A stretch of 30,640 nt of DNA from a virus. The notes under the pieces are model-generated. The model searched no databases. It was not told the DNA's origin and saw only the letters and a program-made list of their open reading frames with translations. The stretch is taken from positions 1-30,640 of IMG/VR virus record IMGVR_UViG_3300045135_002892; one strand, given 5' to 3'. This document shows positions 26,567 to 30,268 of this stretch, piece after piece (the first letter of the stretch is position 1; the number at the start of each line of letters is the position of its first letter). A program made the translations under genes and the position numbers.

Positions 26567-29506
26567 TTAATATTTAGACCAACTTGAGCTGCCTACCGAC
26601 CCATCCCAAACAATTTCTTCTTGAAATGAGTTTTCTTCAATACCCGAATCAATAAATCCAAACGGTACAAGCTGATCTTCAATCATTCTAACATTTTCAG
26701 AATGAATCATACTCTTAATATTAATATCTGTTAATTCCATAAAGAATGGGTTAGTTGTAAACCATGCGAACAATACCAAGTTCATTACCAAGTCGTCATG
26801 ATTACCTTTAGATGCCTCATAAGAAGACCCATTTGCTTCGAATGTCGATAATTCTATAATTGTCTGTTGGTCAGTCAGTTCTAACTTATCTTCTTCAATT
26901 AAGTCTTTAAGATTTGAACAACCAACTCGTTTTACTTTTCTTGTCATTGTCACGCCAATTGAATTTGCTTTGACTGCAGATTCAACAAAAACATTTTCAT
27001 ATTCCAATTCATAATATAGTCCGTTGCATACAATAACTCCTTGGTCATTCGATTCAATAACAACATAAGCATTATTATATACCTTAGCATATTTATATAT
27101 TATGTCAGGTAACAATAGTGGCGAGATTAAATTATCACGGTATACCGCAACCTGTTTAAATGGCTGCGCCGATACATCGATGATATTAAATGTAGAATAG
27201 TCCATACCTCGACCTTTTGCAACATCAACAAAACACATATAGTTATGATCTTCTTTTGGCTTTTCATAAACATTAATTGAGCCTTGCGTATATTCTGGTA
27301 AAGAAGCTCTTAATTGAAGAAGCTTATCACCAGAAATCAGAGTAGTTCCTGTGCCAACAAAGGTATTTCCAAATTCTTGATTAAACTGTATTTCCGATGT
27401 ATTCGCGATTGTTTGCTTTTTCCACTTTTCATCTCGACCAGGGACGTCCCACCAATCAACACGGAAAGGTTTATATTCATTGGTATTTTGTACTGCGCCT
27501 TCCCATAACTTATGAAATGTATTTCCTATACCGTTTGCGGTTGATGTAATAATAACTCGTGATGTTTTACCTGATGAAATAACAGGATAAGTTGAAGTAT
27601 AGAACTGTACATCATTATCAACAAATGCAAACTCGTCAAGGAATAGTAATGAAATAGACAGACCACGAATAGATGAACCCGATGTGGCCGATGCAATAAT
27701 TCTTGAGTTATTACTAAAATCTACATTGCCTTTATTTAATGCTTTACACCCAGGTTGTAAAAAGAACGGAATATTTTCGAGCATTAATGTAATACGAGCT
27801 AACATCTCCTTTGCGGTTGAACCTTTGTTAGCCAAAATAGCAATAGTTTTTTCAGAATGAAATAATGCATACCAAAGCAGATATGCACAAGATGAAATTG
27901 AATTATGGCTAAGAATTCCGTTTGAGTAGAACCTATGATTATCATGATTAACCCCAACGTCATACATGTGAATTGGGTTATTCAGATTAGTTACCGATTC
28001 AACAATACTAAAACCAGCATCAGTGCGTATCTTCTGACCGATGCTTAAGTTCTTCACAAAAGTTTCGTTACCGAATTCGTCAAACACCAAATGATTGTCT
28101 GCGCATATCAATTCATGGTTGTCTGATGTTTTTAGTTTAAACTGTTCGAACTTTACCGTTTTATGTACTTGATATAGTTCTTCATAACCAGTGTCACTTA
28201 ATATGTCAAATCCGAAACCTTCATATGACTCTATGAATTTTTCAGTATTTTGCAATTGTTGAAATGATACCGATACATCGTTGGTCCCTTTCCGGATTTT
28301 TGACAATGCGGGCAGATCAATATCGGTTTCGGCCGGTTCTTTGCCGCTTCTGAAAGATTCTGTTTGTGTTCTTCCGAAAGAGTTCGGCCTGTCAATGATT
28401 CCGATATTTTTTGTTTGTGTTCTTCCACCATCTCCCGCCCAGCAAGCGATTCCGATATCTTTTGTTTGTGATCTTCCGAAAGAGTCTGTCCACGTCTTAG
28501 TTCTGATAAATGTGCCTTGACTTCTGGCGCATTCATCCCGATCTTTATCTTTTGTTTGTGATCTTCCGACAGAGTTCGGCCTGTTAACGAGTCCGACATT
28601 CGTTCCTGTACTTCTGCAGTGAATCGTTTCGACATCATTTCCTGAAACTCGGCGTCCTCCCACCGTAGCTTCAGCGAGTTTGATATTTGGTCTTTCTGTT
28701 CTTGCGTTCGGGTTTTTCCAAGAAACCCTCTCGGGTGCACCTTGTGAGTTTTCCCATAGAAGGGATTCCCATCCCCAGACATTTTTTCTGATAACAGTTT
28801 GACCCACTCTGTGCGCAACTCTTGATACATCTTCGAGTTTTTCACCTTTAAACCGTCTCTCGTGTGAGTCATCATATGAAACGCGCTCACCATTGAAAAA
28901 TTTTCCATCGTAGTTTTTGGATACATTTTGGTCAATAGCAGATGACACAGGTAATGTTCTCGCGTCGTTAGCATCACAAGATTTTCTGAACAGTCGGTTC
29001 CACCACAGCTTTTTGGTATTATATGATGCATTTCCCCAAAATCTAAAGAATTCCTTTTGCGCTTCGACATCAGTGAATTGTATATCTTTGTGTACTTGTT
29101 TGCTAAAAACATAATCGGCCTTCCCACTGTATTTTGACTTATAGTTATTTATACTGGTGAAGATTTCGAAAAGTGTTTTGACTGTTATTTTTCTTGCGTT
29201 GCCATCTAAGAAATTGACATCTATGGTTGTGTCGGGGTGTACACATTTTCCGGACTGTCTACAAGCAAGAATAATTGAAAAACGATTACTATTGAAATGA
29301 TCAAACATTTCTTCTTGATATGGATAAAGATTAAATGGAACTAAACCTTCATCAAGATTAATAACTTTAACATACTTACGTGCAAAATATGCAGGATCCT
29401 TCATGCATTTTGCATATTCAATAACCTCGTCTTTGGTAAAGTTTGTTACAACACCATCTCTTTTAATACGAGGATTGCCAAGATACGAATCGCCATTATT
29501 CATCAT
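26567..29506 (-). CDS. 17: Large terminase gp17 interrupted by an in-frame intein
   Basis: 979 codons; 531 residues after removal of the 448-residue intein (88-535). DNA packaging motor. N-extein 1-87 ends [13 protein letters not shown], the start of the Walker A loop; the C-extein begins [14 protein letters not shown], so splicing restores GKS. Walker B is [11 protein letters not shown]. The nuclease domain keeps all three acidic motifs: [23 protein letters not shown] and KGNHDDLVM. Without splicing the ATPase cannot work. The first ATG lies 11 bases inside the end of the GIY-YIG gene and has no strong ribosome site of its own, so translation is probably coupled. Extein identity is certain. 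Confidence 0.96.
28231..29112 (-). CDS. HNH homing endonuclease nested out of frame in the intein
   Basis: 293 residues, in the +1 frame relative to gp17. The N-terminus [19 protein letters not shown] and the HNH core [34 protein letters not shown] are typical of phage homing endonucleases. NUMOD3 DNA-binding repeats follow ([48 protein letters not shown]), then a C-terminal zinc-finger-like CPHC...H...C. The ATG at 29112 is chosen because GGAAGG lies 6 bases upstream; the open frame extends to a GTG at 29127. A late promoter is 34 bases upstream. The region looks richer in GC than flanking gp17, suggesting arrival from elsewhere. It probably cuts intein-free terminase genes. Confidence 0.9.
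   Translation of the reverse strand: MFLANKYTKIYNSLMSKRKRNSLDFGEMHHIIPKSCGGTDCSENLVMLTTREHYLCHLLLTKMYPKTTMENFSMVSAFHMMTHTRDGLKVKNSKMYQELRTEWVKLLSEKMSGDGNPFYGKTHKVHPRGFLGKTRTQEQKDQISNSLKLRWEDAEFQEMMSKRFTAEVQERMSDSLTGRTLSEDHKQKIKIGMNAPEVKAHLSELRRGQTLSEDHKQKISESLAGREMVEEHKQKISESLTGRTLSEEHKQNLSEAAKNRPKPILICPHCQKSGKGPTMYRYHFNNCKILKNS
28362..28567 (-). repeat. Repeats coding NUMOD3 units in the HNH gene
   Basis: The 14-base core gtttgtgWtcttcc (plus strand) occurs at 28362, 28413, 28464 and 28554. The first three are spaced by exactly 51 bases (17 codons). The repeats show in both overlapping proteins: (R/G)[10 protein letters not shown] in the endonuclease and GRSQTKD/GRTQTKN in the intein frame. 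Confidence 0.85.
29146..29153 (-). promoter_or_regulatory. T4-type late promoter inside gp17 for the nested HNH gene
   Basis: Exact TATAAATA within the N-terminal intein coding sequence; predicted start near 29140, 28 bases before the HNH ATG at 29112, with GGAAGG in between. The arrangement matches the short leaders of other late genes here. Confidence 0.65.
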
Positions 29507-30236
29507 TATAAGGTATAGAGCCTTTCATTTTTTCAGCTAGCATTTTCTGAAGATCTGTTGTACTACCAACACATTTTTTATTTTTATGATAGCGGCCAAA
29601 GCTTTGACTGGTTATTGATTTATCACAATACGGACAATTAAACATCTTTCTTGATTTTGCTTTTTTGGATATTAAATTTTTTGTTGTCTCATTGTGGGTT
29701 TTACCATACATGCCATTTAATTCTCCCATAGATCCATACTTATCACTTCTTTCTTCTTTAGACATATTTCTATAATTCTCTAACAAAGTTTCTGAAGTTT
29801 TTCTTTTAGCTTCTTCGGTTCTATATGTACCAACACTATGGTGCTCAACTATAGAATATCTTTTCTTTAGCACTTTACTCATATGTTCTCTATACTCAGC
29901 TGTTTTCATATAAGATTTATCATCATATATTCCAGCTTCCCAATTGCGCTTAACAGTTTCAGAATCAACGCCGTCACCACCTTCTGTCAAATTCAACAGT
30001 ATCCCGTTATTATCTATATTCTTTCTACCCCATAATCTAATTAATCTTCTTTCTATGGCTAAAGCGCCAATATGTGTTAAATTAGTTTCACAAAAAACAA
30101 TTTTAGATTTATCTCTAGGCACTGAAACGCGGCCATGTTTAACAAAAGCTCGTTTACCTTTACCCTTTCCGATATAGTATGGTTTCCCAGTTTTAGAATT
30201 GATGTACGCGTAAACGTAATAAATAGTATCAGGCAT
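29496..30236 (-). CDS. GIY-YIG homing endonuclease between gp16 and gp17
   Basis: 246 residues. The GIY-YIG core is at the N-terminus ([27 protein letters not shown]), then [14 protein letters not shown], a middle linker, a NUMOD3-like unit ([16 protein letters not shown]) and a zinc-finger-like CPYC...H...C. The last 20 or so residues ([15 protein letters not shown] and on) do not belong to the endonuclease family: they match the C-terminus of gp16. The ATG at 30236 is preferred to a TTG at 30251 because GGAGG lies 8 bases before it. It ends 11 bases inside gp17, so gp17 translation may depend on it. Confidence 0.92.
29526..29570 (-). repeat. Second copy of the gp16 tail, fused to the endonuclease
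   Basis: Codes [15 protein letters not shown]. The other copy (30345-30389, in gp16) codes VGDTTSLQKMLRSKM: 11 of 15 residues identical, with many synonymous base changes, so the copies have diverged. Confidence 0.85.
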
Positions 30237-30268
30237 GATAGCATCCTCCAACGATGTTATTGTGTTTA

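Follow-up and report, generated by a model that had tools for sequence, protein, structure and literature searches.

The stretch of viral DNA analysed here (the window; 30,640 nucleotides in full) carries on its minus strand a 979-codon frame (26567-29506) with zero internal stops, which encodes a T4-type terminase large subunit (TerL, gp17-like) matching the Pfam families Terminase_6N (E=1.2e-18) and Terminase_6C (E=1.1e-15). This precursor is composed of an N-extein (29246-29506), an intein and a C-extein (26567-27901). The intein is precisely inserted in a conserved gene: the N-extein ends with the residues ACRQSGK at the Walker A motif, which is interrupted between GK and S, and the TerL of the relative phage C48C1 is inteinless. 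Cys1 of the intein is gp17 residue 88 (29245) and its last Asn is residue 535 (27902), the junction consisting of SHN followed by Ser+1, the first residue of the C-extein (SISS). These boundaries agree with those of the initial annotation, and they give an intein of 448 aa and a predicted spliced TerL of 531 aa.

The intein blocks were aligned with 12 relatives, and the AlphaFold (AF2) model was built from 13 sequences only. From the alignment and the model, IntN is placed at 29113-29245 (minus strand; only the part 5' of the ATG of the nested gene described below), and it comprises Cys1, the first beta-strands with alpha1, and block A. IntC (27902-28243, minus strand) includes block B (CADNH, 28091-28105) and ends with NGILSHN (27902-27922); it matches NCBIfam TIGR01443 with 18.5 bits against a cut-off of 15.6. 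All the intein signature residues are present, i.e. Cys1, the block B His of CADNH, the penultimate His, the terminal Asn and Ser+1. In the model of the 448-aa intein the pLDDT is mostly 77-96 over IntN and IntC, residues 1-40 being at 77-94. The best Foldseek match is the VidaL intein (6vgv, E=7.5e-10); gp41-1 (6qaz) is also found with E<1e-8, and the model of IntN and IntC matches the Cat atypical split intein as well. It is clear from these sequence and model features that the element is an intein with a Hint domain, and its splicing activity is predicted.

Between splicing blocks A and B there is a second gene (28231-29112, minus strand), whose product has 293 aa from the ATG; a GTG extension reaches 29127. 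The first base of this ATG is the second one of a gp17 codon, which puts the gene in the +1 phase; its TAG stop sits within the codons of the conserved IntC motif EKFIES, and the overlap with the intein frame therefore takes in the entire gene (residues 45-339 of 448). The protein matches Pfam HNH (22.0 bits, cut-off 21.4), contains three NUMOD3 stretches (E=1.5e-11) and shows 36% identity to phage homing endonucleases. It is a predicted homing endonuclease, for which the intein-free TerL allele would be the putative target. The initial annotation had proposed that this HNH protein is made from a separate gene physically inside the intein, and the expression signals of the gene are in support of this. 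A T4-type late promoter, TATAAATA, lies inside IntN codons (29146-29153, minus strand), 41 nt 5' of the HNH ATG, and a Shine-Dalgarno-like GGGAAGG precedes the start (29119-29125, minus strand). The window holds 12 copies of this late promoter consensus, all of them on the minus (coding) strand, with 3.1 expected on both strands. The promoter is found at equal spacing in the window and in two relatives with a nested HNH gene (L011 and L119).

Another ORF, GIY-YIG-like with NUMOD3, occupies 29496-30251 (minus strand) between gp16 and gp17. The C-terminus of its product is a repeat of the gp16 end (GDTTSLQKMLRSKM), as though an endonuclease gene had entered the 3' end of gene 16 and this end had been duplicated in the process.

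Absence of stops in the host frame

Inspection of the open reading frames confirmed that the gp17 frame is stop-free across the whole HNH gene. The odds first given for such an event, (61/64)^293, do come to about 1e-6, but the null model behind them does not hold, and it was replaced by nulls that keep the HNH protein. With the codon usage of the phage, 32.0 host-frame stops are expected and the exact probability of finding none is 2.9e-20; with the codon usage of the gene itself this probability is 1.3e-7. Synonymous shuffling within the gene produced no stop-free sequence in 20,000 attempts (mean 12.1 +/- 2.3 stops, minimum 3, against an observed zero). The third frame of the gene is ordinary, with 21 stops observed and 19.9 expected.

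In the +1 phase, every host-frame stop starts at the third base of an HNH codon. T is found at this position in none of the 87 codons that precede AA, AG or GA and in 55 of the 206 remaining ones. The change from NNT to NNC is always synonymous, and consequently any protein can be made stop-free in this phase. The other phase does not offer this freedom, as a Met codon before one for Lys, Asn, Thr, Ile or Met creates a TGA that cannot be avoided, and there are 3-7 such pairs in each nested enzyme. The +1 phase is the single one where all host-frame stops are removable synonymously.

The same analysis was extended to the relatives presented in the next section. All the nested enzymes tested, complete and partial, have zero host-frame stops against 8-23 expected, and none of 4,000 shuffles of each was stop-free. 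Ten enzymes from split loci contain 50-82 host-frame stops and six free-standing HNH homologues contain 18-34, in both cases near expectation. Besides, a scan of 73 endonuclease loci, picked by enzyme similarity only, detected nine with zero +1 stops, all of them in TerL inteins; the other 64 have 6-51 stops in the +1 phase, and none of the 73 is open in the other phase.

These results bear on the explanation by chance, according to which the open frame comes from an HNH composition poor in stops, or from an assembly or frameshift error that joined two frames. The HNH gene is indeed GC3-rich (0.47) and repetitive because of its NUMOD3 stretches, which lowers the stop rate. Nevertheless, 12 stops are expected even with its own codons, T is absent from the third position before AA, AG or GA in every nested case, and the homologues outside inteins are rich in stops. 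The repetition of the pattern in independent contigs with divergent enzymes also contradicts the frameshift error that the initial annotation had contemplated. The probability left to chance or to such an error is practically nil, and the low-stop-composition null is refuted by the synonymous shuffles and by both the free-standing and the split controls.

Relatives, mobility and changes of state

Relatives were gathered by searches with IntC and with the endonucleases, and the TerL inteins at the same site were surveyed. The arrangement is real and not unique: a whole class exists, with a second endonuclease family and a second TerL site. At least 15 distinct nested loci were found, all in the +1 phase; their endonucleases belong to two families without relation to each other, and their inteins occupy two sites in TerL. 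Apart from the window, a nested HNH gene is present in L119 (65% HNH identity, partial), L050 and L011-L013 (44%). The frame stays open in L119, L050 and L011 although the HNH proteins are only 44-65% identical, in support of the proposal that one segment holds both a splicing-compatible frame and an independent endonuclease. Relatives with host-frame stops and an intact HNH gene were also sought, and none was found among the nested relatives, which all have zero stops. The second family is a vsr-like PD-(D/E)xK enzyme, nested in L091, L094/L099, L098, L100/L103, L101, L102, L114, L213/L215 and L219, with partial loci in L019, L090 and L093. At the second, unrelated TerL intein site, a nested HNH gene is found in L181 and L189.

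Other forms coexist with the nested one. Contiguous mini-inteins, with 38-78 aa from Cys1 to IntC, are present in Ackermannviridae and in L021, L027, L039, L051, L077 and L111, and at most loci of the TerL site the intein is split, a vsr-like endonuclease has a gene to itself and IntC has its own ATG. In isolated phages (tblastn with IntC, vsr-like and HNH queries, and annotated regions) the nested form was not found, the forms detected being mini, split and fused only; genome contigs showed split or contiguous forms and none nested. All nested cases are thus metagenomic contigs, and the window's own element is carried by one contig only.

Several further arrangements were observed in these surveys. 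L056 has an apparently truncated nested endonuclease, in which 124 aa lie between Cys1 and IntC and a 99-aa ORF of the +1 phase retains the two ends of the enzyme. The terminase gene of L011 contains a second intein (L011:3348-4001 and its flanks), split by a GIY-YIG gene. In Krischvirus kaaroe, G2494 and JK32 (L256, L257, L263), and in Shewanella phage Thanatos-2 (L258), the IntN of the second-site TerL intein is joined in frame to an endonuclease-like region, and IntC lies in a separate ORF that overlaps the IntN-fusion ORF by about 12-20 nt. In Vibrio phage Va1 (L254), whose terminase is split, a vsr-like endonuclease is fused in frame to the N-terminus of IntC. Vibrio phage vB_VmeM-32 (L259) has two mini-inteins in one terminase gene, the N-part of the first being outside the start of the record.

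The existence of so many split loci makes it necessary to consider that the window intein is functionally split, its IntN and IntC halves being made separately and spliced in trans, with an incidental open frame. Most relatives at the same site are indeed split, with stops after an IntN of about 36 aa and with IntC starting from an ATG. As for the nested loci with a vsr-like enzyme, the sequence AGGA(G/A)... and the ATG of this enzyme are written into the conserved IntN motif TIG(E/K)FYE, and several of these loci have an in-frame ATG (MSELSDRVERKF) directly before IntC, so they could also splice in trans. In contrast, neither an ATG nor a clear Shine-Dalgarno for a separate IntC is present in the window, L011 or L050, which leaves the open frame as the sole evident route to a full terminase in them; separate translation of IntC was rejected for the window on these grounds. 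Nor does the window show the two ORFs, the stop after IntN and the own start of IntC that characterise naturally split inteins. An unused frame should moreover hold 12-32 stops in the HNH region, where there are none, and the loss of the endonuclease takes place as in-frame deletions. A split intein is accordingly an improbable description of the element in the window.

Related to these deletions, L077 equals L100 minus 714 nt and L111 equals L094 minus 690 nt; in both, most of the endonuclease is gone and the host frame is kept. Two in-frame deletions would occur by chance about 1 time in 9, so this result is suggestive and not significant alone. A further mini-intein, L092, combines a deletion of the L094 type with the IntN start and IntC of the L098 lineage, and from this composition it is read as a recombinant between nested inteins.

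The nested intein also moves as a unit, since an identical element is found within diverged TerL flanks. L101 and L103 share a 1,266-nt nested intein (1263 of 1263 compared positions agree), and the tract free of mismatches extends from -2 to +1280, coinciding with the intein ends. Identity between the two terminases is 67% on the upstream flank and 70% on the downstream one, and beyond them the two loci can hardly be aligned. These observations are relevant to the idea that the mobile element is a self-splicing intron with an HNH gene, the open frame being a by-product. HNH-NUMOD3 enzymes are typical of group I introns, and an NCBIfam group I intron endonuclease model matches below its cut-off. 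Against it, Rfam gives no match to an intron family, the element is bounded by Cys1 and by SHN followed by S or T, and both the mobile unit and the deletion derivatives retain the intein splicing blocks. The group I intron was rejected, being without an Rfam match, and an RNA element in general deserves hardly any credence.

In the IntC tree, at least four changes for the nested state and at least six for the mini state fall on supported branches; its deep forks are weak, and all that can be taken from it is that the nested, mini and split forms occur among one another. Such repeated changes imply that the three states interconvert. Judged by the sequences compared, the nested form is one state of an interconverting intein family, many of whose wider relatives are truly split.

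Selection and structure in the overlapping frames

The selection check on both frames called for in the initial annotation was carried out by position-wise counts and recoding simulations instead of dN/dS, because the available pairs are saturated or nearly identical. Among the nested relatives compared, changes are concentrated at position 3 of the HNH codons, a pattern that indicates purifying selection on the nested endonuclease. In the host frame, the identity observed is close to that predicted by recoding alone, the two values being 0.39 and 0.31 for the window and L119, and 0.30 and 0.28 for L091 and L094. The excess of host-frame similarity in the window comparisons is mainly located in codons 1-60 of the endonuclease gene (z 2.3-4.0), with the exception of codons 1-30 in the comparison of the window with L050 (z 1.3). 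In the ~190 codons that follow, the host-frame identity in most cases departs by no more than 2 sd from the prediction based on the endonuclease proteins.

The structural model is divided in a similar way. Intein residues 47-87 (28985-29107, minus strand), which are encoded over the 5' part of the HNH gene, are predicted to form helices, the pLDDT being about 77-89 for most of these residues. Read in the host frame, the rest of the gene gives 247 residues (88-334; 28244-28984, minus strand) with a pLDDT mostly of 25-35. The intein-frame residues had been described as hydrophilic and without a known domain; most of them are presumably an unconserved and disordered spacer according to the model, but the first ~60 codons are more conserved than the endonuclease alone demands and include the helical segment. 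The helices and this extra conservation are what could be adduced for a functional domain in the host-frame peptide, with dual-protein coding along the whole length. Such a domain is very unlikely in view of the low pLDDT and the near absence of excess identity in the other ~190 codons, and natural relatives tolerate the loss of about 230 host-frame codons.

Proposed mechanism and known systems

The model that best accommodates these data, and in which we place high confidence, is a cis-spliced TerL intein with a complete endonuclease gene nested in the +1 phase between blocks A and B. It is backed in the sequences by an open frame beyond chance, by the conserved openness of both frames, by the expression signals, by the mobility of the unit and by the frame-keeping deletions. 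Ribosomes starting at gp17 would read through the intein frame and give a single 979-aa precursor, in which IntN and IntC would form the Hint domain and excise themselves with the spacer of ~290 residues, yielding the 531-aa terminase. The free endonuclease would come from late transcripts begun at TATAAATA and translated from the HNH ATG; it would cut inteinless terminase genes, the repair then copying the whole element. Selection for an essential terminase would keep the host frame stop-free and selection for homing would keep the HNH protein; the +1 phase would be used because the stops there need a T at a synonymous third position, removable by NNT to NNC. Splicing, translation of both products and DNA cleavage are predictions of this model. 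According to an earlier argument, the exteins would be hindered by a large insertion near residue 35-45 (PMC6801210), and for this reason efficient cis-splicing with an insert of ~290 residues is counted here among the steps that we infer.

The closest precedent for a hidden HNH gene is the ShiLan element, described in 2025 in an actinobacteriophage DNA methylase (PMC11855218). Both share evidence of mobility and an insertion through which the host frame stays open while an HNH gene is concealed in a different frame. However, the ShiLan element has no splicing motifs or Hint fold and is thought to stay in the non-essential methylase, and its HNH gene has a GTG start and no ribosome-binding site and is described as being in the third frame (PMC11855218). 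The window, on the other hand, contains a bona fide intein, with its self-splicing domain, in an essential terminase; the nested gene has a promoter and a Shine-Dalgarno, and stop avoidance has been quantified.

Among inteins, AceL-TerL and GOS-TerL resemble the window element in the terminase gene that they occupy, in the Hint fold and in a break point that follows the first alpha-helix and separates block A from block B (PMC13014065, PMC11766414); the insertion point in the window coincides with the S2 split site described for both (PMC13014065), and VidaL is the nearest solved structure. The difference is that AceL-TerL and GOS-TerL are split genes spliced in trans, whereas in the window one continuous frame runs through and the endonuclease gene lies over the would-be split point. 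As far as can be taken from a later account of the 'fractured gene' split inteins (Dassa et al. 2009, via PMC10448857), these also have a free-standing endonuclease gene between the halves, as do many relatives at the TerL site with their vsr-like enzyme. In that account, the halves are separate genes with stops, whereas those of the window are joined by the frame that remains open over the endonuclease. It has been proposed as a rule that all intein endonuclease domains lie at one conserved site (PMC6801210), from which the insertion in the window departs.

In canonical maxi-inteins, as in the window, the intein and its endonuclease travel as one element in a conserved gene, but the LAGLIDADG or HNH domain is in frame between blocks B and F, and that of the window is a separate gene in the +1 phase between blocks A and B. 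The intron endonucleases of T4, such as I-TevI, are expressed separately from a late promoter inside the intervening sequence, and the nested HNH gene is similar to them in having a late promoter within the element. I-TevI belongs to an RNA intron, so there is no need for an open frame through that element.

In the literature searched, no intein with an out-of-frame endonuclease was found, and older work may hold a buried earlier mention. Three kinds of element were already known, namely inteins whose endonuclease is in frame, split inteins accompanied by an endonuclease gene of its own, and a single hidden-HNH element that does not splice; an intein with a separate endonuclease gene lying over its own frame joins them. 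The simple rule of a +1 phase where NNT to NNC is silent, together with a clean statistical signature, offers a way to find further cases. Should splicing be confirmed, the site could also be of use for intein tools, as a natural position where a very long insertion is tolerated.

A broader view takes the nesting of an out-of-frame endonuclease to be a general condition of mobile inteins: a separate gene would invade a mini-intein in the +1 phase, become entangled with the essential frame and so be guarded against frameshift decay, and the nested form would stand midway between contiguous inteins and those naturally split at the atypical A/B site; the reasons for and against holding it seem to us evenly balanced. 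It is plausible in itself that the nested state is an intermediate in the origin or the loss of split inteins. Synthetic 'gene entanglement' stabilises endonuclease genes (PMC12455656), and the nested intein may be regarded as its natural counterpart: by analogy with the engineered case, sharing its DNA with an essential frame could shield the endonuclease from decay by frameshift. Two questions thereby become testable, namely the origin of naturally split inteins and the persistence of a selfish endonuclease gene.
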